From the NCBI RefSeq assembly GCF_021165935.1, contig NZ_CP088953.1, forward strand, positions 3,147,501-3,211,500: a stretch of DNA of 64,000 nt, written 5' to 3'. The notes under the pieces were generated by a model, which was given only the letters and a program-made list of their open reading frames with translations, did not search any database and was not told the DNA's origin. Below, piece by piece: positions 1 through 12,687 of this stretch; the stretch's first letter is position 1; each line of letters opens with the position of its first letter. The position numbers and the translations under genes were made by a program. This DNA is from Microbulbifer elongatus. Its GTDB lineage: Bacteria; Pseudomonadota; Gammaproteobacteria; Pseudomonadales; Cellvibrionaceae.

Positions 1-306
1 TGCAAATTGTTTGGCATAGTGCGCGGGCCGCCCGGACGCGGCGGGGACAATGGCCACAGTTGGGTAAGCGGCAGGGACTGAATCGATAAATGCCTGATAG
101 ACCGGCCGGTTATCACTGCGCAGGGCGCCACCCACAATCAGCAACCGTCCAGTGCCAGTTGCAGGGTTCACTCGAGAGTTCTCTCGCGCGTTACTTTCCG
201 CCTTCGATGTTGCCGCGACATCCTGCTGCTCAGTGTTGCACCCAAGCGAGAAAATGCAGGCTGCCAACAAGCAAAGGCGAGACACAATTGAAACATTCAC
301 ACACAT
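1..306 (-). CDS. Cyanophycinase-like lipoprotein, N-terminal part (cut by left window edge)
   Basis: An open minus-strand frame runs from an ATG at 306 to base 1 without a stop, giving 102 codons. Residues 1-23 form a lipoprotein signal peptide ending in the lipobox FSLGC. A short low-complexity spacer follows. Then comes a start that fits peptidase family S51 (cyanophycinase/dipeptidase E fold), with the patterns RLLIVGGALRSDN and VAIVPAASG. The catalytic Ser lies beyond the edge, so the family call rests only on the N-terminal strand pattern. The start overlaps the end of the AraC gene by 10 bases, which suggests translational coupling, and GAGTGG lies just upstream. The protein is probably a surface- or periplasm-anchored second cyanophycinase. 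Another S51-like peptidase is the alternative. Confidence 0.7.
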   Translation of the reverse strand, partial: MCVNVSIVSRLCLLAACIFSLGCNTEQQDVAATSKAESNARENSRVNPATGTGRLLIVGGALRSDNRPVYQAFIDSVPAAYPTVAIVPAASGRPAHYAKQFA

Positions 307-704
307 AATTCCACTCGCAAGTAGTCTGAATTTACCGGTCGAAAGCAGTACCGATGAGCGACCTCTGCCCGCTCCCCCAGCATGCGCTCGGCGCGGGGGC
401 TGCGCCCGTAGGTTTCGCGAAACGAGCGGCTGAAATGCGACGCGGAGCGAAACCCACACTGCAATCCCACCTCTTCAATGGTCAGCGCTGTTTCAAATAA
501 CAGTGCTCGCGCCCGCTGTAATCGCAATTCCCGGTAATAGCGCGCCGGCAATACCGCTTTAAAGCGAAAAAAAATACGCTCCAGCTTCTTTACTGAAATA
601 TTCAGGTACTCGGCCAACTCTCCTGTCCGCAATGGCTCGGAAAGATTGTTGCGCATCAGTACCAGGGCTTCTTCCAGTAATTGCTCGTCTCGTAATCTGG
701 CCAC
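297..704 (-). CDS. AraC/GlxA-type transcriptional regulator, DNA-binding domain only
   Basis: This 135-residue protein consists almost entirely of an AraC C-terminal domain. The first helix-turn-helix lies at about residues 25-50 (LRTGELAEYLNISVKKLERIF). The second lies at about 75-105 and carries the signature IEEVGLQCGFRSASHFSRSFRETYG. GlxA-family members usually exceed 300 residues and have an N-terminal amidotransferase-like sensor domain, which is absent here. The GTG start at 704 is preceded by a strong GGGGGAG ribosome-binding site 13 bases after the isoaspartyl dipeptidase stop, so this looks like a genuine short gene and not a remnant. As the penultimate cistron of the cyanophycin operon it is the likely local regulator. 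How it would sense an inducer is not visible. Confidence 0.8.
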   Translation of the reverse strand: MARLRDEQLLEEALVLMRNNLSEPLRTGELAEYLNISVKKLERIFFRFKAVLPARYYRELRLQRARALLFETALTIEEVGLQCGFRSASHFSRSFRETYGRSPRAERMLGERAEVAHRYCFRPVNSDYLRVELCV

Positions 705-717
705 GACTCCCCCTTAT

Positions 718-1890
718 TTAAGAATCGCGCGATGTTGCGGGCCCCTGTCGGTCGAACAGCTGCCAGCGGCCACACGCCATCACATGGGTAATCAGAAACC
801 GCTCCGGATCCACCAGCATCAAATCGGCATCGCGACCGGTGGCCACCTGCCCCTTGTGCTTGAGGCCAACCGCGCGCGCGGGATTGCGGGTCACCACCTG
901 CAATGCCGTGGTTAGCTCCACACCCTCGTCTTTCACCGCGCGGCGCAACTCATCAAACAGACTGGCACTGGACCCGATTTCCAGATCCTGCAGCTGCCCC
1001 TGATCGCAAAAATTGGTCAAAGAGCCCTGGGCATCCGAGGAGAACGTCAATTGGCCCGCCGGCGCACCCTGCTCCAGGGCCATCTTGAGTGCGCGGCTCG
1101 CGCGCATTTCACCACTGGCCAGTATTTCATCGGTGGTCGATGTGGTGAAATCAATAAAACCACCAGCCCGGGCAAATTCCACACCGTGAGCCAGTAGTGA
1201 CTCGTTGCGGTTCATATGGGTGGGGTAGAACTGGGTAATCGGTATCTCGGAGTTTTCCACCGCATCGAACAACGGCGTCAGGCGACCCGCGCCGTCACCC
1301 ACGTGCACACTGACCACGCCCCCCTTGCCACTGAGCAGACCGGCCACGCGCGCGTCGGCGGCAATACGCACCAGCTCTTCGCGGGTAGGATGGGAAGAAC
1401 GGTGATCGGAAATGGCCAGCTCACCCACACCAATCACGTTGCTGACCAGCATGATGTCACTGCGAACACTGCCCGTGAGGGTGTTCACCGGCACCTGGTA
1501 GGACCCCGTTTGCATGTAGCAGGTCAGGCCCAGGGCTTCGAGCGCACGTGCCTTGCCGTACATTTCGTTGAGCGTGCGGGTAATCGCATCGGTACCAAGC
1601 GCACCAATGACCGTGGTCACGCCGTTATACAGCGCATCCCGCACATCCAGCTCCGGGGTGCGCGAAGCAAAGCCGCCCTCCCCGCCACCGCCACTGATAT
1701 GCACCAGGGTGTCCACCATACCCGGCATCAACCAGGCACCATCGGCATCGACCACATCGCCCAGACTGTGTGGCAACTCAATATTTTGATCGATCTTTGC
1801 GATCCGCCCACCAGCGACCAGTACATCGCAGAGACCCAATTTGTGGGGCGCAAAAACCTGAGCGTTTTTTATCAGTACGATTGAAGACAT
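718..1890 (-). CDS. iadA: Isoaspartyl dipeptidase (beta-aspartyl peptidase, amidohydrolase family)
   Basis: This 390-residue protein resembles E. coli IadA, which hydrolyses beta-aspartyl dipeptides in the cytoplasm. Recognisable parts are the N-terminal IKNAQVFAP strand, the GGGGEGGFASRTPE loop, SDHRSSHP, and metal or substrate residues H196, H225 (PTHMNRN) and D286 (FSSDAQGS). Two positions differ from E. coli: the first His of the HxH motif is Leu62 (DTLVH), and a Glu (E157, VGELAISDHRS) sits where the carboxylated Lys is expected. The ATG at 1890 is preferred over an in-frame TTG at 1899. The gene follows the YfcC carrier by 18 bases. In this context the substrate is probably beta-Asp-Arg released from cyanophycin. 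Confidence 0.85.
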   Translation of the reverse strand: MSSIVLIKNAQVFAPHKLGLCDVLVAGGRIAKIDQNIELPHSLGDVVDADGAWLMPGMVDTLVHISGGGGEGGFASRTPELDVRDALYNGVTTVIGALGTDAITRTLNEMYGKARALEALGLTCYMQTGSYQVPVNTLTGSVRSDIMLVSNVIGVGELAISDHRSSHPTREELVRIAADARVAGLLSGKGGVVSVHVGDGAGRLTPLFDAVENSEIPITQFYPTHMNRNESLLAHGVEFARAGGFIDFTTSTTDEILASGEMRASRALKMALEQGAPAGQLTFSSDAQGSLTNFCDQGQLQDLEIGSSASLFDELRRAVKDEGVELTTALQVVTRNPARAVGLKHKGQVATGRDADLMLVDPERFLITHVMACGRWQLFDRQGPATSRDS

Positions 1891-1908
1891 ATTGAACAAC
1901 TTAGAAAT

Positions 1909-3420
1909 TTAAAAACCCGCCGCTGCAGCGATTATCACCGCCGTCGACGCGAGCAGGAAAAGTCCGGCCTGAAGTGGCAATACAAAGCGCACCCACACGC
2001 CCCAATCCAGGCGCGCGGCGCCCAGGCAACCCATCAGTGCTGCGGAGGTCGGAACAATAATATTGGTGAGGCCATCACCCAGCTGGAATGCCAGGACCGC
2101 GGTCTGTCGGGTAACCCCAACCAGATCCGCTAACGGTGCCATGATGGGCATGGTCAATGCCGCCTGGCCGGAGCCGGACGTAATGAAAAAATTGAATACG
2201 GTCTGAAATGCCAGCATAAACCAAGCCGAGACAGTGCCAGATACGTTAGAGAGGCCATTGCCCGCAGCATGCAAAATGGTATTCAGGATACTCGCGCCTT
2301 CGGGATCGTCACCGCCCAACAGCAGCACGATACCCTTGGCGAAAGCCACCACCATGGCTGCCGGCAGCAGTTGCTGCGCACCTTCCTTAAAGGCCGCCGC
2401 CGCCTTATTGGGTGTAAGGCCATTGAGCCCGAACAGAATCGCCACCGCAGCAATCACAATACCCATGGTGAAAAACTGCGAAGCAATTTCCGGCAGGAAA
2501 TAACTGCGTTCCACGACGCCCCAGATCATCCACGCAATACCGGCCAGGAACAGCAGCAACACCCAACCATCGCCGCGCACCATGGTTTTCAAGGCACCAA
2601 GCGAGGTGGTCTTATCGCGGAATACGCGATCGGAGTTGAACGCCAGCGACTGATTCGGCCGCGCCTGTACACGGCGCGCGTACCATATGGTGTAGGTGGA
2701 AAGACCGACGGTGGCGATTAGCCACAACGCCATGCGCGGGATACTCCCGGACATCAGCGGCACCCCGGCGATACCCTGAGCAATACTTACTCCAAACGGG
2801 TTCATCCAGGAAGTGGCAAAGCCCACCTGAGTGGCAACATAAGTCACCAGCAGCGCCGTGATACTGTCGTATCCCATGGAAATCAGCAGAGGCACCAGGA
2901 TGAGAGTGAATGGAATGACCTCCTCACCCATGCCAAATACCGCACCGCCCAGGGAAAACAGAAAACACAGAATGGCGAGATACCAGTGGCCCGCATCGCG
3001 ATTGCGCGCAATCACCTGAAACAGACCGCGTTCCACAGAGCCACTGGCGAAAATCAGGCCAAAGGCACCGCCGGTGAGCAGAATAAACGCGAAGACACCA
3101 ATAGACGCGCCCCACTTGGTGCCGGACACCATGCCCTCGAAGGCGAAATTGAGAAATCCAATACCGCCGCCCTCAGCAAACAATGACATGCCCGCGGGCG
3201 CATCACCCACTTGCTGGTAAGTGGCCGGATCGATCACCGTACGCTCACTGCCGTTCACCTGTTGAGTCACTGTCTCGAAGGTGCCCGCCGGAATCAAAAA
3301 GTTCAGCGCGAAAGCCAACAGGGCAACACCCAACAAGATCAGATAGGTGTCTGGCATGGACCAGGTTTTAATCGCCGAACGCTCGGTGTCGTGACTGGAT
3401 TCCACTTCACTTGTGTGCAT
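1909..3420 (-). CDS. YfcC-family inner-membrane carrier (basic amino acid/peptide transporter-like)
   Basis: A polytopic membrane protein of about 503 residues with 11-13 hydrophobic segments, beginning around residue 25 (TYLILLGVALLAFALNFLIP). It matches the YfcC/C4-dicarboxylate anaerobic carrier (DcuC-like) superfamily. Typical stretches are GGAFGLIFASG, GMGEEVIPFTLILVPL and a C-terminal GSGQAALTMPIMAPLADLVG followed by QLGDGLTNIIVPTSAALMG. YfcC proteins are usually linked to arginine/ornithine or other amino acid transport. Here the protein is placed to import beta-Asp-Arg or arginine. The ATG at 3420 is chosen; an in-frame TTG at 3435 is the alternative, and neither has a clear ribosome-binding site. 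A terminator-like hairpin lies between this gene and the receptor gene upstream. Confidence 0.82.
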   Translation of the reverse strand: MHTSEVESSHDTERSAIKTWSMPDTYLILLGVALLAFALNFLIPAGTFETVTQQVNGSERTVIDPATYQQVGDAPAGMSLFAEGGGIGFLNFAFEGMVSGTKWGASIGVFAFILLTGGAFGLIFASGSVERGLFQVIARNRDAGHWYLAILCFLFSLGGAVFGMGEEVIPFTLILVPLLISMGYDSITALLVTYVATQVGFATSWMNPFGVSIAQGIAGVPLMSGSIPRMALWLIATVGLSTYTIWYARRVQARPNQSLAFNSDRVFRDKTTSLGALKTMVRGDGWVLLLFLAGIAWMIWGVVERSYFLPEIASQFFTMGIVIAAVAILFGLNGLTPNKAAAAFKEGAQQLLPAAMVVAFAKGIVLLLGGDDPEGASILNTILHAAGNGLSNVSGTVSAWFMLAFQTVFNFFITSGSGQAALTMPIMAPLADLVGVTRQTAVLAFQLGDGLTNIIVPTSAALMGCLGAARLDWGVWVRFVLPLQAGLFLLASTAVIIAAAAGF

Positions 3421-3435
3421 AAAGGGATACCGCAA

Positions 3436-3477
3436 ATAAAAGAAAAGGTCGGCAGACCCGCAACCGCGGGCCTGCCG
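3436..3477 (-). terminator. Intrinsic terminator or attenuator between receptor and carrier genes
   Basis: On the minus strand a 12-bp stem (CGGCAGGCCCGC / GCGGGTCTGCCG, one G-T pair) with a GGTT loop is followed by ACCTTTTCTTTT. It begins about 25 bases after the TonB receptor stop. It probably ends most receptor transcripts and lets some read through into the carrier, dipeptidase and regulator genes. Confidence 0.75.
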
Positions 3478-3501
3478 AGATCAGCTCCTGTGAAACGCTG
3501 A

Positions 3502-6375
3502 TTAAAAGGCGTAGCCATAGCTCAGGGTATAGAAACGGCCCAGAGAGTTGTGGTTGAAGTGATCCACATTGGCTCCGGTACCCAGCACCAGCGGCGGCTC
3601 TTCATCCAGCAGGTTGTTGACCCGCAGGCTCAGCCAGCTGCCGTTGTCGAAGTCACGGGCAACACTGAGATCAAAGGTCAGCCAGCTGTCCACTTCCACG
3701 TTACCCTCATCATCGAAGTTTACGCGCGACAGGAAGTACTCGGCACCCGGCTCAAGGAGAGCGCCCAGAGTGCGAGAGTCCGGGTCATCACGGTAGCTGT
3801 GGGTGTAACGGGCGGACAGAGTGGTTGACCAGTCCTCGTAGCGCCAACGCAGGGAGCTGTTTGCCAACCAGCGTGGGTAGGTATAGTTGCCGGCCTCACT
3901 GACGATGCCCAGGGCATCCGAGGGAAGTTTGTCGAACTCAGCCAGGTAGGTGCCATCGAGAGTAAGACGGAAACTGCCCCAATTTTCAGTTTCAAAGTAT
4001 TGGGTCAGCGCCATATCGACACCACTGGTCTTCTGCCAACCGAGGTTGGACAACTGGAAGTGAGCATCAACCACAAAACCAGAACCATCGACCTCGAGAC
4101 CCGGCTGTCCAGTGGGCAGCTCACCCTCACCAACCACGGCGAAATCGCCGTTAAGGGCACGCAGGATGAAATCATCCTCTTCGACACCAATCAGGTTCTC
4201 GTGCTCGATATTCCAGTAGTCGATGCTAATTTCGGTATCGGCGGTCGGTTTCAGCAGGAAGCCCGCACCCCAAGTGGTCGCAGTTTCCGGCTCGAGATCA
4301 TTATTGCTGACCGCTTCCGAAAGCAGTGCTTCGCCGGTTTCATCAGCAAAACCGTCACAGGCCTCGGGAGTCACACTGCAATCCACACGATAGCTCGACA
4401 ACAGTGTACCGGCACCCACCTGAGCCAGCGACGGCGCACGGAAGGATGTAGACCAGTTGCTGCGGAAAATAATTGCATCGTTGAAGGCGTGGCGCAGTGC
4501 CACTTTCGGGTTGGCATCACCACCAAAGCTGTCGTAGTGGTCATAACGCAAGGCGACCTGCAGTTCCGTATCCGCCGCCAGCGGAATCATCTGCTCCATA
4601 TACACCGCCCACTGGTTGCGCGATGCATCGGCAGAGGTGGAGCTGAAACCGAGGATCGGCTCAGGATTCAGAGTGGTAGAAACCGCATCTCCTGAGGGAA
4701 CATCGACGACTGTCTCACGGCGGAACTCACCGCCAAACGCGACTTGAATCGCGCCAGCAGGCAGTTCGATCCAGCTGCCAGAAATATTACCGTCGATCGC
4801 GTAAAGATTGGATTCACCGCTGCGCTTGGCGTCGGTGCGAACGAACTGGTCAATGGCATCCACTTGATCGACCTGGCCACCAAATGGATTGTACCAAGCA
4901 GTAGTCTTGCCCAGATCTTCACAGGTTTCTCCGGAACCATAACTGGATCTGTTCGGGGACTGCATATCCACTTCCCAGCGATCAACTACAGTGCCGTCGG
5001 AACACAGATTACCAACCAATGCATTGATAAACGGCTCGGACTTATACAGTCCAGAGATTCCGCGCTGTTCAGACTCACTGCGCCCCACGTTGGCAGCAAC
5101 TTCCCAGTTCCAGTCGTTCACCTCACCGCGCAACCCGGAAACCATACGCACCGACTGGTTTTCTACTTCAACAGCGCGTGCATCGGGGAACTTACCCCAG
5201 GCGAAAATGGGATAGCCATAAAAATCGGTAAAGTCGTAGGGAGCAAAACCTCGCAATTCCTGTTCTGCGGCAACATCCACAATATCCTGCGCCAGGGCTT
5301 CCGGCCACAGCGGACTTTCCGGGTCGACCGGAACATAGCTAAAGTTTGCAGGAGCGGAAGTTCCACGAGACTCGCTCGTCTGCATCATGAAAGTATTGAA
5401 CCACTCCAGATTGTCGGAGATGTCGTAATTAAAAGTCGCTACAACACTGGCACTTTCGTACTCGTCCTGGGTCGCAGATACAGCGTTGGTGTTGAACTCA
5501 CAGTACTCACCCAGACGACCGGTCTTGAGCTGGTCCGCTGGACACCCTGCGGCACCAGACTCAGCTTGGTCAAAGCTGATGCCATCGTTGTACAGGAAAA
5601 AGTCGTCGTTAAAACTTGGATAAGTACCCTGCTGGCTCGGACGTACGGAATTCGCTGTCAGTTGGCGATCGCGATCGTACATCGCTTTGCGCGAGAACAG
5701 GTCAACCACCACCATGGTATGGCTACGCTCACCTTCGCGGCCCCAAACCCAGTTCAGGTTGTATTTGCCTTCGTCACTACCGGCAGTGGAATTGCCGTGG
5801 GTCAGGGAAACTTCACTGCCAGTAAAGTCGTCGCGCAGAACAAAGTTCACCACACCGGCAACCGCATCCGCACCGTAGGTGGCCGCTGCACCGCTGGGCA
5901 GCACTTCCACACGCTCAATCGCAGACAGTGGGATGGAGTTTACGTCGACAAAAGATTCCTGGCCCTTGGCAAAAGAGCTGACCGAAACGCGACGACCATT
6001 TACGAGTACCAGGGTAGAACTTGCACCCAGGCCGCGCAGAGATACACCTGCGGCACCGACTGGGGTGCTACTGGAGAGCGCACCGGAAGTGGCGGTAGAG
6101 AATGTGCCGCTGCCGCCGCCGGTCTGAGATAGCTGCTGCAGAATCTCGATAGGGGATGTTGCGCCGGACGCTTCGATATCGTCGCGATTGATTTGAACGA
6201 CCTGTACCGCGCCTTCGGCGTCCAGGCCCTTGATGTGGGTACCGGTAACCACCACTTCCTCTACCGCATCCGCGACTTGCGGTGCTTCCTGCGCGAAGGT
6301 CAGCGCACTGCCACCGACCAGTGAGCAACTAACGGCGAGGCGAATTGCTTTGTATAGCTGGGTTCTGTTATTCAT
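3502..6375 (-). CDS. TonB-dependent outer-membrane receptor, candidate cyanophycin-product receptor
   Basis: This 957-residue receptor has a signal peptide (MNNRTQLYKAIRLAVSCSLVGGSALTFAQ), then EEVVVTGTHIKG, a plug domain at about residues 40-170 (SLRGLGASSTLVLVNGRRV, IERVEVLPSGAAATYGADAVAGVVNFV) and a long beta-barrel. The barrel ends in an aromatic-terminated strand (FYTLSYGYAF), as is usual for insertion by the BAM machinery. The start at 6375 is set by a strong TTGGAGGGA ribosome-binding site; the frame opens upstream, but that extension lacks both a site and a leader. The gene lies between a secreted cyanophycinase and a carrier plus isoaspartyl dipeptidase, so the likely ligand is cyanophycin fragments or beta-Asp-Arg. 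Ligand specificity is inferred from context only. Confidence 0.88.
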   Translation of the reverse strand: MNNRTQLYKAIRLAVSCSLVGGSALTFAQEAPQVADAVEEVVVTGTHIKGLDAEGAVQVVQINRDDIEASGATSPIEILQQLSQTGGGSGTFSTATSGALSSSTPVGAAGVSLRGLGASSTLVLVNGRRVSVSSFAKGQESFVDVNSIPLSAIERVEVLPSGAAATYGADAVAGVVNFVLRDDFTGSEVSLTHGNSTAGSDEGKYNLNWVWGREGERSHTMVVVDLFSRKAMYDRDRQLTANSVRPSQQGTYPSFNDDFFLYNDGISFDQAESGAAGCPADQLKTGRLGEYCEFNTNAVSATQDEYESASVVATFNYDISDNLEWFNTFMMQTSESRGTSAPANFSYVPVDPESPLWPEALAQDIVDVAAEQELRGFAPYDFTDFYGYPIFAWGKFPDARAVEVENQSVRMVSGLRGEVNDWNWEVAANVGRSESEQRGISGLYKSEPFINALVGNLCSDGTVVDRWEVDMQSPNRSSYGSGETCEDLGKTTAWYNPFGGQVDQVDAIDQFVRTDAKRSGESNLYAIDGNISGSWIELPAGAIQVAFGGEFRRETVVDVPSGDAVSTTLNPEPILGFSSTSADASRNQWAVYMEQMIPLAADTELQVALRYDHYDSFGGDANPKVALRHAFNDAIIFRSNWSTSFRAPSLAQVGAGTLLSSYRVDCSVTPEACDGFADETGEALLSEAVSNNDLEPETATTWGAGFLLKPTADTEISIDYWNIEHENLIGVEEDDFILRALNGDFAVVGEGELPTGQPGLEVDGSGFVVDAHFQLSNLGWQKTSGVDMALTQYFETENWGSFRLTLDGTYLAEFDKLPSDALGIVSEAGNYTYPRWLANSSLRWRYEDWSTTLSARYTHSYRDDPDSRTLGALLEPGAEYFLSRVNFDDEGNVEVDSWLTFDLSVARDFDNGSWLSLRVNNLLDEEPPLVLGTGANVDHFNHNSLGRFYTLSYGYAF

Positions 6376-6672
6376 TTTTATTCCCTCCAAGAGATCTACT
6401 CTGGTTTGCAATGATTATGAAATTTCTCTAGTTCTCTGCGAAACGTACTTTTCTACCGCACGCGCCTCGAAAGGCGGCAGACTTGACCGATCGTTCCGGA
6501 GGGGTCGGGCGCAATTTTTACAGCAGGCTTCCCGCAGCCGGCAACGCCGCGCGAGCAACCACAGGACAACCCTGACAGCAGTGTTAGGTAAGCAAATTAG
6601 GGGCGGAGATACTCCGACTCATAGCTTCCATGCACCCGGCAAACACAAACATCGTGCTTCACGGTGCCGCAC

Positions 6673-6689
6673 CCTCGGTCAGACCGAGG
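6673..6689. promoter_or_regulatory. Perfect 17-bp palindrome, possible operator
   Basis: CCTCGGTC-A-GACCGAGG has perfect 8-bp arms around a single central base. It lies about 300 bases upstream of the receptor start, inside the long intergenic region. No T-tract follows on either side, so an operator is more likely than a terminator. The binding protein is unknown. Confidence 0.35.
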
Positions 6690-7045
6690 TTTGGAAGCTA
6701 CTCGTCGAACCACTCGCTGAGGTAGTAGTCGGAGGAGCAGCGCTGAACAGCAATGAGTTGAGTCATTTTGCTAATCGTCTTTGCGCTTGAATTTATTCTG
6801 GAGCCGCCGGTCACTATGACCAACAAAATTCACATATTTTTTATCACGCTGAAAAAAACCTGTAAAGCGTTTATTCGGCAGAGGAAGACTTCAACCCAGA
6901 AAAAAGTCACCGCCGAATATGCTGCGTTTTTCCTTGCAGAGAGGCGCGTTTTCCCCAGAAAACACAGAACCGTGCGCAATAGAGCGCGGCGGGCAAATTT
7001 TTCTAAGGAATGAAAATCTCAGCCTAAGCACTTTCGATGAAATGG

Positions 7046-7069
7046 CCGGGAAGCCATCTCGGCTCCCGG
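7046..7069 (-). terminator. Hairpin downstream of cyanophycinase
   Basis: The inverted repeat CCGGGAAGCC-ATCTC-GGCTCCCGG (nine pairs and one bulged A) starts about 36 bases past the cyanophycinase stop. No uridine tract follows on the minus strand, so termination by it is uncertain. Confidence 0.4.
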
Positions 7070-7105
7070 TACTAAGACCATACGGTCGGACTATGTTAAA
7101 CCCGG

Positions 7106-8512
7106 TTACTCGTACGGCTGATTGATATAGAAGCTGGACGACCGCCCATCAATCCCAATGAGCTTTCCGTTCACGGTGGTCTGTCCCGTGAGAATATTGA
7201 ACGCATCAAATTCGGAGAGCTTGTAGCGCACTACGTCTTCGTAGATGACCGGCTGACCACAAACCGCCTGGGTGCGACTGGTCTGTGCACCTTCCCGCAA
7301 GACATACACATGGCCGTTACCATCGACAACACCGTTACCGTCTTCGGTAAAATAGATAGATGTAGCCTCATCCACTCCAATGCCGCTGATGCCCGCAGGT
7401 AGTCCGGCCATAAAGGCCATCAGTCGACCCATACGGTCGCGCTCAGCGAAGTGGGTATCCACGATCACCGACTGCATCACCGGGGTGGTAAGAAAGTTTG
7501 AGGAGATGTTTATGTACTCATGGCAGAGATCGCTTACCGCCTCAGCGGAGTAGGCCCCAAGTACGCCATCCGGGTCATAGATGTGCTCAGACTGCACCGC
7601 CGCGCCAGCGGAAGTACCGCCCAGAACAGCACCTCTGGCGATCACATCATCGAGCGCCTGTTGTAGCGCAGTGCCCTGCCACTGATTGAGGTAATCGGAC
7701 TGATCACCTCCAGCAATCCAGACAAACTCCGCGGAACGCACCGCCCACTCGACATAAGGATCGTTGGCATACTGAACGCGGTCGACCATGAGGGTCTCAA
7801 CGGAATCTGCATTGAGCAGGTTTTTCAGGTAATCGTTGTAACCGTCACTCCCGCTGGTGCGCAACACAACCACATCACCACCACCCAGCTTGGGGGCAAC
7901 ACGCCGCGTGAAAGCGGCATCGACATCAGTACCGCCACCCATAACCAACAGGCCACCCTGGGATTGCGTGACACAGATGTCTTCGGCATTGCCCGTCATA
8001 TAGTTTGTTAGACCACCGGGCTTACTGGGGCGAGAGCCAAGACCGCAGTCGTCACCACCACTACTGGAACCACCACCGGAACTGCCGCCACTACTACCGG
8101 AACTGGAGCCAGGGATTCCGTCCACTGTCAGAGTGTAATCACCGCGGCCTTTATAGCGGGTCACTTTCAGGGTGTAGAGTCCATCACCAGCCACGGACAC
8201 ACTGGCGGCTTCCGGCCGGTTGCTGGTTTCCGCGCTGTAGAGACGACTTGAGGCATCGTATAGGTGCCAGTCAAAGTCGTCACCACTGCTGTGGTCGAGG
8301 GAAATATTCAGAATCGACGCCGAAGTAACATCGAAGTGGTACCAGTCCTGATCGCGACGATTTGCAATGGAACCAGCAACCGGCTGTGCCGAGCAGACGG
8401 GGCCGCTGGCATCGGATTCCGAATCGTTGGACTCACTTTCTACAGAAATACAGGCCAGAGATACCTGACTCATTGCAGAAAGAATAAATAACGCGGCTAG
8501 CTTGCCTTTCAT
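7106..8512 (-). CDS. Secreted cyanophycinase with N-terminal PPC domain (peptidase S51)
   Basis: This 468-residue exported enzyme has a signal peptide (1-20, ending SQVSLA). A PPC-type beta-sandwich follows at about residues 38-131 (QDWYHFDVTSAS, LKVTRYKGRGDYTLTVDG), then a Ser/Gly linker at about 134-153. The cyanophycinase domain spans about 165-468. Family landmarks are LLVMGGGTDVD, the GGDQSDYL loop, the nucleophile motif GGTSAGAA with Ser301, and DTHFAERDRMGRL. Cyanophycinases cleave the Asp-Arg polymer cyanophycin to beta-Asp-Arg dipeptides. The PPC domain and linker may hold the enzyme on insoluble granules, which is inference. AAGGAGC lies just before the ATG at 8512. The gene has its own upstream region and starts the locus. 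Confidence 0.9.
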   Translation of the reverse strand: MKGKLAALFILSAMSQVSLACISVESESNDSESDASGPVCSAQPVAGSIANRRDQDWYHFDVTSASILNISLDHSSGDDFDWHLYDASSRLYSAETSNRPEAASVSVAGDGLYTLKVTRYKGRGDYTLTVDGIPGSSSGSSGGSSGGGSSSGGDDCGLGSRPSKPGGLTNYMTGNAEDICVTQSQGGLLVMGGGTDVDAAFTRRVAPKLGGGDVVVLRTSGSDGYNDYLKNLLNADSVETLMVDRVQYANDPYVEWAVRSAEFVWIAGGDQSDYLNQWQGTALQQALDDVIARGAVLGGTSAGAAVQSEHIYDPDGVLGAYSAEAVSDLCHEYINISSNFLTTPVMQSVIVDTHFAERDRMGRLMAFMAGLPAGISGIGVDEATSIYFTEDGNGVVDGNGHVYVLREGAQTSRTQAVCGQPVIYEDVVRYKLSEFDAFNILTGQTTVNGKLIGIDGRSSSFYINQPYE

Positions 8513-8741
8513 GGGCGCTCCTTGATAGTCGTTATTGTTGTGCTGCCGATTACATCCCCTACCCGCACTGCGTGAGGTAGGTTGGGTAGAGGTCTCGGGA
8601 CACCTTTAATGAACGACACGGCGCATTGCCGGCGCAATAGCGAGGGATAAAACAGGCAAGTAGACGGAAAAATAAGAACATTATGGCAATTTTATGCGCC
8701 AATTCCGCATTTTATACACAGCAATCAAGGTCGCGTGCGGC

Positions 8742-9050
8742 TTAGATCCCGCAATCCAACGCATCGAGAAGCATATGCATAATCAAACCAATACCCAGCC
8801 AGCGCACAGGCTTCCAGGGAAGAAACATCATCGCACCGTACAGGGATATGGGGAGCATTTTATGGAGCGGATGGAAATTGATACTACAACGATCGGGATC
8901 GTAAATCGGAGTCGCCAGCAAATGATCCAGGTCCACCAGATTTGCCGCCAACATAAACAGCGCGGCTTTTTTCCAGTCGTCGCGAAAGAAAAACCAGGCA
9001 ATGGCAAGAGGTACCAGGAAATGTAAAACAATATGCAAATAACTAAACAT
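8742..9050 (-). CDS. DUF6122-type small membrane protein
   Basis: A 102-residue membrane protein with three or four hydrophobic helices and a conserved-looking HxxxH/D pattern (LHIVLHFLVPLAIAWFF, NLVDLDHLLA, HPLHKMLP). It resembles the DUF6122 family, whose function I do not know. The ATG overlaps the stop of the upstream GntR gene as TGATG, so the two are translationally coupled. Confidence 0.7.
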   Translation of the reverse strand: MFSYLHIVLHFLVPLAIAWFFFRDDWKKAALFMLAANLVDLDHLLATPIYDPDRCSINFHPLHKMLPISLYGAMMFLPWKPVRWLGIGLIMHMLLDALDCGI

Positions 9051-9724
9051 CAGTGCGGCATTAACTCTTCTGCGGAAATGGAACCCAGGCCTTCTTCAAT
9101 ATCCTGGCGAATGGCGGTGCGCACCGCCTGCTCATCTTTTCTGGCAATGGCCTCAACCAGGTCCTGATGTCGGTCCGGCAGCTCCTGCACACCGAAGCGC
9201 TGGAAGACCAGATGTTGCAACGGCGCTGTTTGTAGCCACAGACTTTCGATGAGGGACAGGATGATGTGGGGGCGCCCGAGGCGGTAGAGGGTAAAGTGAA
9301 ACTCGAGGTTACCGGTCACGTATTCCTGAATATCGTTCTTTTCAAGGGCACCGGTTACCCGATCATCCAGCGCGCGCAGCGTCTCCAGTTCCGCGTCGCC
9401 AACATGTGGCAGAGCCTGTACGGCGGCTTGGCACTCCAGGGCCACCCGCGCCGCGCAGATTTCATCCAGCTTTTCCCGGGTCATGATGGGGACGGTGACC
9501 CGCCGGGTATCCGACAGCTCCAGCGCCCGCTCCGAGGTCAGGCGTCGCAGCGCCTCGCGCACCGGCATCGGGCTGCAATCCAGCTCCGCGGCGAGACCGC
9601 GAATGGTGATGGGGTTACCGGGCAAAAACTGGCCACGCAAAATGGCGTCCCGCACCTGGTAATAGACCCGCTCTTGCGTGGTGCGGAATTCTTCCTGCGG
9701 CTCGGTAAATTCGGCGTCTTTCAC
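9050..9724 (-). CDS. GntR-family regulator, FadR/FCD subfamily
   Basis: A 224-residue regulator. The N-terminal winged helix lies at about residues 15-80 (VRDAILRGQFLPGNPITIRGLAAELDCSPMPVREALRRL). An all-helical FCD ligand-binding domain lies at about 88-215 and has metal-binding-type residues (EFHFTLYRL, RHQDLVEAI). FCD regulators usually respond to small organic acids. Nothing in the neighbourhood fixes the ligand. It is coupled to the DUF6122 gene and lies 77 bases downstream of the patatin-like gene. Confidence 0.88.
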   Translation of the reverse strand: MKDAEFTEPQEEFRTTQERVYYQVRDAILRGQFLPGNPITIRGLAAELDCSPMPVREALRRLTSERALELSDTRRVTVPIMTREKLDEICAARVALECQAAVQALPHVGDAELETLRALDDRVTGALEKNDIQEYVTGNLEFHFTLYRLGRPHIILSLIESLWLQTAPLQHLVFQRFGVQELPDRHQDLVEAIARKDEQAVRTAIRQDIEEGLGSISAEELMPH

Positions 9725-9801
9725 TGGCGGCCTTTCACTATTGTTCCTGCGGTGGAGGATTCAGCCCCACAGCCAGCAATACGTACCGCTAGTGCATGGG
9801 C

Positions 9802-10914
9802 CTAGGCGGACATAGCCAGCTTGTGCGGAGCCTGGTCACTGCCAACTTCAATCAGTTCGTTGGCAATGGCGCCAGTTTGCCACAATTCGAAGAAATCCTC
9901 CGCTACCTGTTTGCCCGCCTCGGTTACCGTGTTCCAGTATTTGAGGCGCTCTTCCGTCGACAGCTTTACGAAGTCGTCGCGGTCGGGAATCTTGCCGAAG
10001 GGCAGCTTTGCCACCCAGGACGGCGATGGCGCCACCAGTATGACATTCTCCATGGCACCCCCACGCACCCAGCGCCAACGCAGACTCTTGTCAAACCACC
10101 CCGGCACCATATACGGGAAGAAATGGGGGTAGAGCACCAGCCCTTGCGGGTGCTGGAAGCCGAGATCAAAGTGGTAATCGGTAATCCCGCCATCGCGGTA
10201 GTTGCCCGCCGGGGCTCCGGCTGGGGTGGGCACGCCGGCCATCACCAGGGGTATAGATCCGCTGGCTAGCACCGCCGGGCAGACGTTGTCCGCGCAGAGC
10301 CGGGTATTCACCGTACTGAGATTGCGAAACGCCACACTCGGCAGCTCTCCGGAATGAAACACCACCCGGTCCCAGAAGGCGCGCAGGCTGCGACGAGTGA
10401 CCGCATTCGCCAGAGCAGACGCCAGCAGGGCCGGGCCCAACAGCGCTTTCCTTTCACTGGCCAGAGGCCCGCGCCCCCGTACCGTCACAAAGTGGCTGCG
10501 CCACACCGGATTACCCGCCACTTGCTGGGCACCCTCTTCCCCCAGCACATCCAACAGGATCTTTTCGCCAGCGCCAGTAATCTCGGCTGGCAACGGCCGG
10601 TCGCTGGCGTAGGTCTGGTTGACATAGCCGTACTCAAGTTTCTCCAGCGCCGCCATCGGGTTGGCGGTGGCGTAACACATGTTGCGAAAACTGCCGATCG
10701 ACGAGCCGAGCGTCGCAATGGGCGTTTTGCGACCGCGGAAAAACTCACCGATCAAAACCCGGTCCAACTGGCTGATCGACAACCACTTGGGACCACCAGA
10801 TGCCCCCACGAGGGTGGATACCATATCCTGGTTCAGCCCCTCGTCCCGCACCCGCCGGGCCGCGCCGGCACCGGCGAGGATCACACAGCTTCTGGATTTA
10901 CTCCGATTTACCAT
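9802..10914 (-). CDS. Patatin-like phospholipase family protein
   Basis: A 370-residue protein with the patatin Ser-Asp dyad layout. A glycine-rich oxyanion region (LVGASGGPKWL) is followed by the nucleophile elbow G70-S-S-I-G74 (catalytic Ser72) and by the Asp motif DGG at D241 (YRDGGITDYHFD). No signal peptide is evident, so cytoplasmic or peripheral membrane action is likely. Patatins hydrolyse acyl ester bonds of phospholipids or other lipids; the substrate cannot be told. The gene is 65 bases from gloA, on the same strand. Confidence 0.8.
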   Translation of the reverse strand: MVNRSKSRSCVILAGAGAARRVRDEGLNQDMVSTLVGASGGPKWLSISQLDRVLIGEFFRGRKTPIATLGSSIGSFRNMCYATANPMAALEKLEYGYVNQTYASDRPLPAEITGAGEKILLDVLGEEGAQQVAGNPVWRSHFVTVRGRGPLASERKALLGPALLASALANAVTRRSLRAFWDRVVFHSGELPSVAFRNLSTVNTRLCADNVCPAVLASGSIPLVMAGVPTPAGAPAGNYRDGGITDYHFDLGFQHPQGLVLYPHFFPYMVPGWFDKSLRWRWVRGGAMENVILVAPSPSWVAKLPFGKIPDRDDFVKLSTEERLKYWNTVTEAGKQVAEDFFELWQTGAIANELIEVGSDQAPHKLAMSA

Positions 10915-10979
10915 TTTGACTCTCAGCTCACTACAGCCTGCTCAATTGTTGCAGCCACCGGCGCCCGGATGCGCGCCGG

Positions 10980-11420
10980 TTACCACTCGCCGGTATTTTC
11001 CATGGACGCCCAGGGTTCCTGCGGCGGCAGAGCATCACCCTTTTGCAGCAGTTCGATAGAAATGTTGTCCGGGGAGCGTACAAACGCCATATGGCCGTCC
11101 CGCGGCGGACGGTTGATGGTGCCCCCCATGTCCATCAGGCGCTGGCAGGTCTCATAGATATTGTCCACCCGGTAGGCCAGGTGGCCAAAGTTACGGCCGC
11201 CGGAGTAAGTCTCCGGATCCCAGTTGTAGGTCAGCTCGAGGCACGGGCGGGTGTCGACATCCGCCGTATCCTTGTCCCCGGGTGCGGCGAGAAATATCAG
11301 TGTAAAACGGCCTATTTCATAATCATTGCGTTTGACCTCGTACAGGCCCAGCTTGTCGCAATAAAATTCCAGGGACTTCTCCAGATCACTAACACGCACC
11401 ATTGTGTGCAAATATTCCAC
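10980..11420 (-). CDS. gloA: Lactoylglutathione lyase (glyoxalase I)
   Basis: A 146-residue single-chain VOC protein with two beta-alpha-beta-beta-beta modules. It shows the glyoxalase I metal ligand pattern: His5 (LHTMVRV), Glu in CLELTYNW, His in FGHLAYRV and Glu in SIELLQKG. It isomerises the methylglyoxal-glutathione hemithioacetal to S-lactoylglutathione in the cytoplasm. The [17 protein letters not shown] stretch is characteristic. It diverges from the PLP-enzyme gene at 11509. Confidence 0.9.
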
Positions 11421-11508
11421 TGCAACGCCTCCTTTGCGGGATTACAATCCCGGTACATCAAATAACGAGCGATAATTTAATCGCCCCACCAAAAGTTACC
11501 AGAGCGAA

Positions 11509-12687
11509 ATGTATCAAAAATACTATCGACATTTTTTACAGGCCGCCCAAAAAGCGGCCTCCCCTGGCTGCGACCTGCCGGTCCTGCATATGGCCTGCCA
11601 TTCCCACCACTACTGGGCGGACGTGACCCTGGATGCGGTAAACGCCTACTGGCAGGATGCCGCGACCATGGCCGACTCAAAGTGGGAGAAGATCTTCGGC
11701 GAGAAGATACCCGCCTTCCAGCGGGCTATCGCAGCCACGCTCAACCTGCCCGCACCCGAGCAGATCGCCCTGGCGCCCAATACCCACGAGCTGGTATTCC
11801 GACTGCTCAGCGCCTTCGACTTGGCTGAACCCCTGCGTATCCTTACCACCGACGGCGAATTCTACAGTTTTGCACGGCAATTGTTGCGTTTCGAAGAACT
11901 GCCCAATGTGCAGGTCACCCGCATCCCCACCCGGCCCTACGCCACCCTGGCGGAGCGGTTTGATGAAGAACTGCAATCCGGCCAGTACCAGCTCGCTTAC
12001 GCCAGCCAGGTATTCTTTGATTCCGGCGTCGCCTTCCCCGACCTGCTGACACTCGCCGAGCGCAAGCCAGAAACCACGGAAATGGTGATCGATGGCTACC
12101 ACGGCTTTTTTGCCCGGCCTACCGATCTCGCAGCTGTAGCGGATAAAGTGTTCTACACCGCAGGATCCTATAAGTATCTCGGCGCCGGTGAAGGCATGTG
12201 TTTCATGAGCATTCCCCTTGGGTGCCAACTGCGACCACTGAATACCGGCTGGTTTGCCGAGATGGCGGAGCTGGAAAACCGCGGCGAAGGCGTGGAATTT
12301 GGCAACGACTGGCTGCGCTTTGCCGGGGCCACCATGGACTACTCCCCCCTATACAAAGCACTGGCAGTGCTGGATCTCTACCAGCAGGAAGGGTTGACCG
12401 TGGACGTCATTCACCGGTATGTGCAGCAACGCCAACAACACTTCCTGCAAGCGATGGATGGGGCCGACCACCAGACGCTCAACCGGCACAACCTGATCGC
12501 CCACGATCTGGAGGATGGCCACGGACATTTCTTCACCTTCCGTTGCAGCAGCGCCGACGCTGCAGAACAGCTTCAGCGGGAACTCCGGAAAAAAAATGTA
12601 CTGTGTGATCGACGCCAGCACCTGCTGCGCCTCGGCTTCGCCCTGTACCACCCGGAAAACGAAACTTTCACACGCCTGTTCACCTGA
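11509..12687 (+). CDS. Kynureninase-like PLP-dependent aminotransferase class V fold protein
   Basis: A 392-residue fold-type I PLP enzyme. The cofactor site is visible as D195-x-x-H198 (VIDGYHGFF) and Lys222 in SYKYLGAGEG, the pattern of kynureninases and related class V enzymes. NTHELVFRLL corresponds to the phosphate-binding region. Kynureninase itself is usually about 415 residues and lies near other kyn genes, none of which are here, so the substrate is open. The ATG at 11509 follows AGAGCGAA. The gene diverges from gloA. Confidence 0.78.
   Translation: MYQKYYRHFLQAAQKAASPGCDLPVLHMACHSHHYWADVTLDAVNAYWQDAATMADSKWEKIFGEKIPAFQRAIAATLNLPAPEQIALAPNTHELVFRLLSAFDLAEPLRILTTDGEFYSFARQLLRFEELPNVQVTRIPTRPYATLAERFDEELQSGQYQLAYASQVFFDSGVAFPDLLTLAERKPETTEMVIDGYHGFFARPTDLAAVADKVFYTAGSYKYLGAGEGMCFMSIPLGCQLRPLNTGWFAEMAELENRGEGVEFGNDWLRFAGATMDYSPLYKALAVLDLYQQEGLTVDVIHRYVQQRQQHFLQAMDGADHQTLNRHNLIAHDLEDGHGHFFTFRCSSADAAEQLQRELRKKNVLCDRRQHLLRLGFALYHPENETFTRLFT

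Follow-up and report, generated by a model that had tools for sequence, protein, structure and literature searches.

The first 8,512 nucleotides of the window, a 64,000-nucleotide stretch of the Microbulbifer elongatus genome (NZ_CP088953.1, positions 3,147,501 to 3,211,500), carry a candidate locus for the use of cyanophycin, a polymer in which cyanobacteria and others store nitrogen and arginine in dense form. In order of transcription, all on the minus strand, it comprises genes for an S51 peptidase of 468 residues with an N-terminal PPC domain and a Ser/Gly linker (CphPPC, 7106..8512; assigned from Pfam, solved relatives and motifs), a TonB-dependent receptor (TBDR, 3502..6411), a YfcC-type inner-membrane carrier of the DcuC family (508 residues, 1909..3435, NF008611), the isoaspartyl dipeptidase IadA in a variant that we call LxH (718..1899, TIGR01975), a 135-residue AraC-family regulator with a DNA-binding domain only (297..704, by a helix-turn-helix match) and a lipoprotein-like cyanophycinase of ∼450 residues (CphLipo), whose 5′ part occupies 1..306. 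The six genes had been named in an earlier note on this DNA, and open frames and family matches bear them out, the sixth gene running past the window edge to L003:16454. Gaps of 66, 9 and 13 nucleotides separate TBDR from YfcC, YfcC from IadA and IadA from AraC, and the AraC and CphLipo genes overlap by ∼10 nucleotides (CphLipo starts at about position 306), so the last five genes form a tight unit from which the CphPPC gene, 694 nucleotides upstream of the TBDR gene, is set apart.

Both S51 enzymes keep the GGTSAGA nucleophile motif, GGDQ and DxHF; GTSAGA and DxHF, which we take to be marks of cyanophycinases (S51), are also present in the solved relatives. CphPPC, with the motifs GGDQ, GGTSAGA and DTHFAERDR, matches PF03575 (46.4 bits) and PF04151 (29.9 bits) above their cut-offs, and its nearest solved relatives are the cyanophycinase 7uqv and collagenase PPC domains. 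CphLipo scores 187.5 bits against the NCBIfam cyanophycinase model TIGR02069 (cut-off 126.6) and matches the solved cyanophycinases 7uqv, 3en0 and 7uqw. Each has a hydrophobic N-terminal segment. In CphPPC the Cys after the signal (LAC) fits the lipobox pattern, and the relatives with a listed N-terminus conserve both this Cys and another 19 residues further on; a disulphide is therefore as likely as a lipobox, and we call the protein exported and no more. Its domains and motifs suggest CphPPC is probably an exported cyanophycinase. Near the locus in two relatives lies a further, divergent S51-like protein of ∼340 residues (L106:6250-7266 and L016:14441-15472), and in L106 the DxHF pattern was not found in it.

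The receptor is 969 residues long from TTG 6411 or 957 from ATG 6375, the probable start, which has GGAGG upstream. Its plug and β-barrel domains are both above the Pfam cut-off, and an AlphaFold model of modest quality (mean pLDDT 62.3, pTM 0.63) contains the barrel strands, the plug being poorly modelled. The carrier scores 642.8 bits against NF008611 (cut-off 500), and the nearest relatives that bear a name come from Microbulbifer. One database scan with YfcC yielded 50 loci, and TBDR, YfcC and IadA genes lie together in 27 of these, 25 of them with an S51 gene in the stretch; the stretches of the remaining two (L023, L053) begin fewer than 400 bases from the TBDR. The S51 gene lies 3′ of IadA in 15 loci (12 Microbulbifer, one Pseudomaricurvus and two bins), and ten Colwelliaceae/Shewanella loci have a longer S51 gene divergent from the TBDR. 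The other 23 loci have YfcC-IadA only (four), S51-YfcC (one Ignavibacteria contig), a distant opposite-strand TBDR without IadA (two) or YfcC alone (16).

When 48 Microbulbifer genomes were searched separately for the TBDR, cyanophycinase and IadA, each was found (the cyanophycinase over cut-off) in an identical set of 20 genomes, and the remaining 28 have none of the three, save one weak S51 match of 28 bits. A second S51 match (90–101 bits), which we have taken for the PPC type, is present in 19 of the 20, the exception (G913) having an incomplete TBDR match as well. This shared pattern shows that the genes are gained and lost together and could reflect inheritance of one linked block; absent from the 28 genomes, the block is no core trait. 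Since the gene order recurs in other genera, and the three genes are all-or-none within the genus sample, the grouping is not due to chance. The M. elongatus genome has no cyanophycin synthetase CphA1 over cut-off (the best of 12 partial matches reaches 74.6 bits, the cut-off being 850), which fits scavenging. The earlier note had read the locus as one for cyanophycin utilisation, and the linkage of receptor and carrier to cyanophycinase, which would have counted against that reading if confined to this genome, extends to several gammaproteobacterial families; together with the lack of CphA1 over cut-off, this lends the reading comparative support.

One assumption of the note fared less well, that the dipeptidase is a standard IadA. 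The protein, the only IadA over cut-off in its genome, scores 461.6 bits against TIGR01975 (cut-off 331.25). In the VDTLVHI segment (codons at 1696..1716, identified from the DNA letters and the alignment) a Leu codon at 1707-1705, position 65 in the numbering from TTG, replaces a zinc-ligand His, the first of the HxH motif; ten other metal and substrate residues are kept. In the available text of PMC7774594 the equivalent residue of FiBAP, H61, binds Zn2 together with H63, E156 and D285. All five solved IadA chains that we aligned (three proteins by reading of the entries), including the Colwellia enzyme 5xgx, keep this His. Given Leu in place of the first His, the protein is related to the family in sequence but its metal site is altered, and it is not a standard binuclear IadA. 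The first His is Leu in 30 of 32 IadA sequences (our own plus those of 31 loci) and His only in two Bacillaceae. Adding the best 120 of 5116 database matches gave a 152-row alignment, in which 101 Leu rows and 51 His rows are split by one branch (SH-aLRT 98) and the ten other metal and substrate residues never vary. No replacement metal ligand was found in this alignment, as none of eleven residues specific to the LxH group is His, Asp, Glu or Cys. A second tree of 83 of the 86 loci described below, built by a quick method with the fragmentary L102, L120 and L142 left out, again separates LxH from the rest by a single branch (SH-aLRT 99). LxH occurs in 101 of the 152 rows and 61 of the 86 loci and is set apart by a single branch in both trees, which rules out a sequencing error or the quirk of one species. 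Among the 86 loci, the LxH protein of L106 additionally carries Tyr in place of S289, and the LxH IadA gene of L120 (L120:9111-10419) contains an in-frame stop, marking a pseudogene or an assembly error.

The genomic context of IadA was sampled at E 1e-60 or better, with IadA genes in 8 of 369 genomes of the class, 24 of 244 of the order and 52 of 295 of the order of genome G348. Removal of repeats left 86 gammaproteobacterial loci, none of which was dropped (that of M. elongatus being L004); some contigs are short (L102, L160), stretch lengths differ, and neighbouring genes were named from NCBIfam matches of representatives only. The 61 loci with LxH and a Glu metal bridge contain YfcC beside IadA in 32, S51 in 29, TBDR in 27, an arginine-type ATP-binding cassette (ABC) binding protein in 18, a GbdR-like AraC regulator in 8 (in short form in L004 and L103), arginine succinyltransferase in 6 and CphA in 1. 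Uptake genes, arginine-catabolic genes or the GbdR-like regulator are present in 56 of them, L104 and L108 having the regulator alone. In contrast, the 18 loci with HxH and a Glu bridge contain S51 in 17 and CphA in 16, no uptake, arginine or regulator genes, and none of the sought genes in one (L172). Seven loci with HxH and a Lys bridge have none of the sought genes; such enzymes are under-sampled, since the search favours relatives of the query. Genome G887 has both arrangements, an LxH gene in a TBDR-S51-YfcC locus (L165) and an HxH gene beside CphA and an S51 gene without an export-like N-terminus (L173). N-terminal hydrophobicity of at least 2.0, a threshold picked after the values were seen, is found in 30 of 32 S51 proteins of LxH loci against none of 17 from HxH glutamate-bridge loci, the two exceptions being L138, signal-peptide-like by eye yet low in score, and L115, not signal-peptide-like.

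LxH is not strictly tied to the TBDR locus, as 34 of the 61 loci are without TBDR, nor to the absence of CphA, to which L115 is the one exception, nor to the genes sought, as four loci (L131, L145, L168, L170) have none. In two of these four, L131 and L145, the LxH genes are related and a methionine sulfoxide reductase gene lies directly 3′ (by Pfam in L131 and by look in L145), hinting at a role in protein repair. In L105, L107, L109 and L110 the LxH gene adjoins a GbdR-like AraC regulator and AstA, AstB, AstC and AstD, a neighbourhood that suggests β-Asp-Arg feeds directly into arginine breakdown there. In 24 genomes the LxH gene lies near an arginine-type ABC binding protein or a GbdR-like regulator, the latter sometimes accompanied by AST genes; 22 of them gave no cyanophycinase match, and in none was there one over cut-off; these genomes, whose loci are without this receptor, would on gene content use the dipeptide only. 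On the 83-locus tree ten changes are needed for the S51-YfcC context and four for the ABC context, of which well-supported branches force at least six and at least two, respectively. LxH could thus have had one origin, its neighbours having changed several times, mostly within uptake and arginine use.

Within the LxH loci the receptor follows the cyanophycinase, being present in 26 of 29 loci with an S51 gene against 1 of 32 without (both in 26, TBDR only in 1, S51 only in 3, neither in 31; Fisher p 7e-13, which is too strong because the species are related). The single TBDR locus without S51, L102, is a cut contig of 3.8 kb, and all 27 TBDR-bearing loci have YfcC. The three S51 loci without this TBDR are L115, which has CphA, L132 and L133. 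Beside the S51 gene L133 encodes a 1022-residue protein (L133:12612-15680) that has a carboxypeptidase-regulatory-like domain and matches TBDRs weakly, and L132 a 981-residue protein of unclear kind (L132:1943-4888); these large proteins, standing in the place of the TBDR in LxH-YfcC-S51 loci, are possible receptor replacements. The coupling of TBDR to cyanophycinase suggests import of oligomers, and the receptor is probably one for cyanophycin oligomers.

Taken together, we consider it likely that the locus is a scavenging operon for foreign cyanophycin. The exported PPC-S51 enzyme would shorten insoluble cyanophycin outside the cell, the TBDR would import the soluble oligomers across the outer membrane with energy from TonB, the lipoprotein-like S51 enzyme would trim them to β-Asp-Arg in the periplasm, YfcC would move the dipeptide into the cytoplasm and LxH IadA would split it into Asp and Arg. 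We infer all substrates, the locations beyond export, the direction of transport, the regulation and the activity of the LxH enzyme; the weakest links are the substrates of the TBDR and of YfcC and the number of metals, one or two, in the LxH enzyme. A SusCD-type polysaccharide-utilisation locus (PUL) combines a depolymerase, TonB-energised import, periplasmic finishing and an inner-membrane carrier, and the same four roles are proposed here, with a polyamide as the substrate.

Several observations weigh against this reading. CphPPC scores 91.3 bits against TIGR02069, under the cut-off of 126.6. The export and lipobox assignments of the S51 enzymes rest on patterns, and the CphLipo lipobox, found by pattern only, is absent from some relatives (e.g. 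L015, L017). No SusD-like lipoprotein was matched among the nine window proteins scanned or the two encoded downstream, so that of the PUL analogy drawn in the earlier note one part stands, that the locus may function in PUL manner, but it is no SusCD-type PUL. β-Asp-Arg is expected to be small enough for porins, in which case a TBDR would not be essential. The dipeptide could also be split by an Asparaginase_2/IaaA-type enzyme encoded in the genome, and YfcC-IadA pairs occur without cyanophycinase in a 21-kb stretch in two Bacillaceae (L019, L020) and alone in two Shewanella loci (L036, L052). The main weakness is that, with a single origin of LxH, its link to scavenging rests on one event and cannot be called causal.

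Alternatively, the ligand of the TBDR might be β-Asp-Arg itself or something unrelated, for instance a metal complex, with the whole digestion of cyanophycin taking place outside the cell. The locus does encode an exported cyanophycinase of the PPC type, and the receptor resembles siderophore, colicin I and B12 receptors, every family match being under its curated cut-off. We nonetheless regard this as unlikely, since the receptor tracks the cyanophycinase, and in the stretches taken the TBDR is missing from all 18 LxH loci that have an arginine-type ABC binding protein. It is less likely still that the locus serves β-aspartyl peptides generally, for example the isoaspartyl peptides of aged protein, with cyanophycin incidental. 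The promiscuity of IadA and IaaA enzymes from cyanophycin clusters, reported in the available text of PMC10206079, would agree with such a role, as would the Bacillaceae and Shewanella pairs; against it, an S51 gene is present in 26 of the 27 loci of the IadA-anchored set that combine TBDR, YfcC and IadA, DxHF is kept in 48 of the 49 S51 proteins across all loci, and many other LxH genes adjoin arginine-type genes. That LxH IadA is dead or repurposed and the IaaA-type enzyme, encoded elsewhere in the genome, makes the final cut is similarly improbable, for despite the loss of one of four Zn2 protein ligands (as named for FiBAP in the text available of PMC7774594), the L106 substitution and the L120 stop, LxH genes are kept beside uptake genes in many families and ten residues invariant in all 101 LxH rows are not the pattern of a dead enzyme.

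A scavenging operon for foreign cyanophycin thus remains our preferred reading, and it invites a more speculative step. In the amidohydrolase NagA a single zinc is held by Glu, His and His. LxH IadA might, although we hold this with some doubt, be a third kind of isoaspartyl dipeptidase, with one firm zinc on Glu, His and His as in NagA or a loosened second metal, tuned to β-Asp-Arg and marking users of the cyanophycin or dipeptide of others, HxH enzymes serving the cell's own polymer or protein repair and the TBDR family being dedicated to a polyamide storage polymer. The branch is a natural experiment on whether a binuclear amidohydrolase stays in use after the loss of a metal ligand, with neighbours that predict the substrate, and LxH may serve as a sequence marker in metagenomes separating cyanophycin eaters from makers. 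In the literature searched we found no experimental demonstration of cyanophycin import by outside bacteria, for which the locus offers a candidate receptor family, a carrier, a defined set of individually deletable genes and a genus with and without the block.

The operon concept is partly in print already. Of 52 genomes that lack cphA1 and encode both a cyanophycinase and an isoaspartyl dipeptidase, 45 have the two genes clustered, frequently together with amino-acid transporters (PMC10206079, in the part available). The same text attributes to Ben Hania et al. 2017 a ‘cyanophycin utilization locus’ with cyanophycinase genes, iadA and a transporter. The M. elongatus locus likewise clusters cyanophycinase, isoaspartyl dipeptidase and transporter genes, in a genome without CphA1 over cut-off. 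Compared through this citing description, the two share that gene cluster and, as proposed here, a scavenging role, and the Microbulbifer locus differs in a dedicated TBDR, YfcC, two S51 enzymes and an LxH IadA. In Citromicrobium sp. JLT1363 a TBDR gene lies close to a cyanophycinase gene and cyanophycin was proposed as the substrate; the likeness extends to one genome, with no carrier or dipeptidase named in the available text (PMC3400609). The parts available of reports on a Thalassotalea cyanophycinase (PMC7564069) and a putative secreted cyanophycinase of Pseudoalteromonas (PMC2536512) name no receptor, and a soda-lake bacterium and Salinivirga have two S51 proteins, one with a secretion domain (PMC6243061, in part). 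With type I IadA (FiBAP and the Colwellia enzyme) LxH IadA shares the family, the glutamate metal bridge and the other active-site residues, and differs in the Leu at the H61 position of FiBAP (available text of PMC7774594 and PMC5517026). The Leucothrix IadA, described as promiscuous (PMC10206079, in part), appears to be structure 8dqn, an HxH protein in our alignment. For YfcC, the matches listed held only fungal strain numbers, and LxH IadA was not found among those listed for IadA-directed searches. The Pseudomonas aot operon presumably links an arginine-type ABC transporter to a β-Asp-Arg dipeptidase, CphZ/AotO, which we take to belong to a protein family other than IadA; it was not found among the literature matches listed, which were swamped by unrelated words. 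In the 18 loci described above, by contrast, the arginine-type binding protein has LxH IadA as its neighbour. What we consider new, not having found it in the literature searched, is the LxH IadA branch and the coupling of receptor to cyanophycinase.

Shortly 3′ of the TBDR stop codon the transcript would form a hairpin with a GC-rich 13-bp stem followed by CCTTTTCTTT (3449..3478, minus strand; L004 5478-5449, offset 2000), which folds at −35.2 kcal/mol over 70 nucleotides with z −6.1 in a shuffle test. We folded 18 such sites and shuffle-tested 15 (L007, L010 and L013 left out), and z is −2.6 or lower in 13; the exceptions are L018 (−1.4) and L017 (−0.15), in which TBDR and YfcC abut. Between families the position is kept and the sequences differ. 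We infer a partial terminator or message-stabilising element, which would keep the receptor message above those of the downstream genes and give more receptor than carrier. A terminator scan gave 15 sites against 12.6 expected by shuffling, so only this one strong hairpin was taken further, and a sigma-70 promoter scan was uninformative, with 3 sites against 5.4 expected by shuffling. Rfam matched no known RNA element in window 1-12000.

The AraC regulator has 312–327 residues in six relatives (L009–L013, L018), and in the clade of the window (L004–L008, L014) 135–155, the DNA-binding part only, its gene still sitting between the same neighbours. The one long relative scanned, that of L009, has a weak DJ-1/PfpI match under cut-off in its N-terminal part. 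Beyond the window, on the same strand, genes for a class-III aminotransferase and a glutamine-synthetase-like protein come next after CphLipo. The pair is present in 11 of 12 Microbulbifer-labelled loci of the YfcC-found set, and none was seen outside Microbulbifer among the YfcC-found and related loci; we have left it out of the locus core. L016 (38% identity), L106 and L120 each have a class-III aminotransferase gene by itself in the vicinity of the locus. Within the window, an open frame of 392 residues at 11509-12687, with no Pfam match at 0.001, resembles by eye a pyridoxal-phosphate (PLP)-dependent enzyme.

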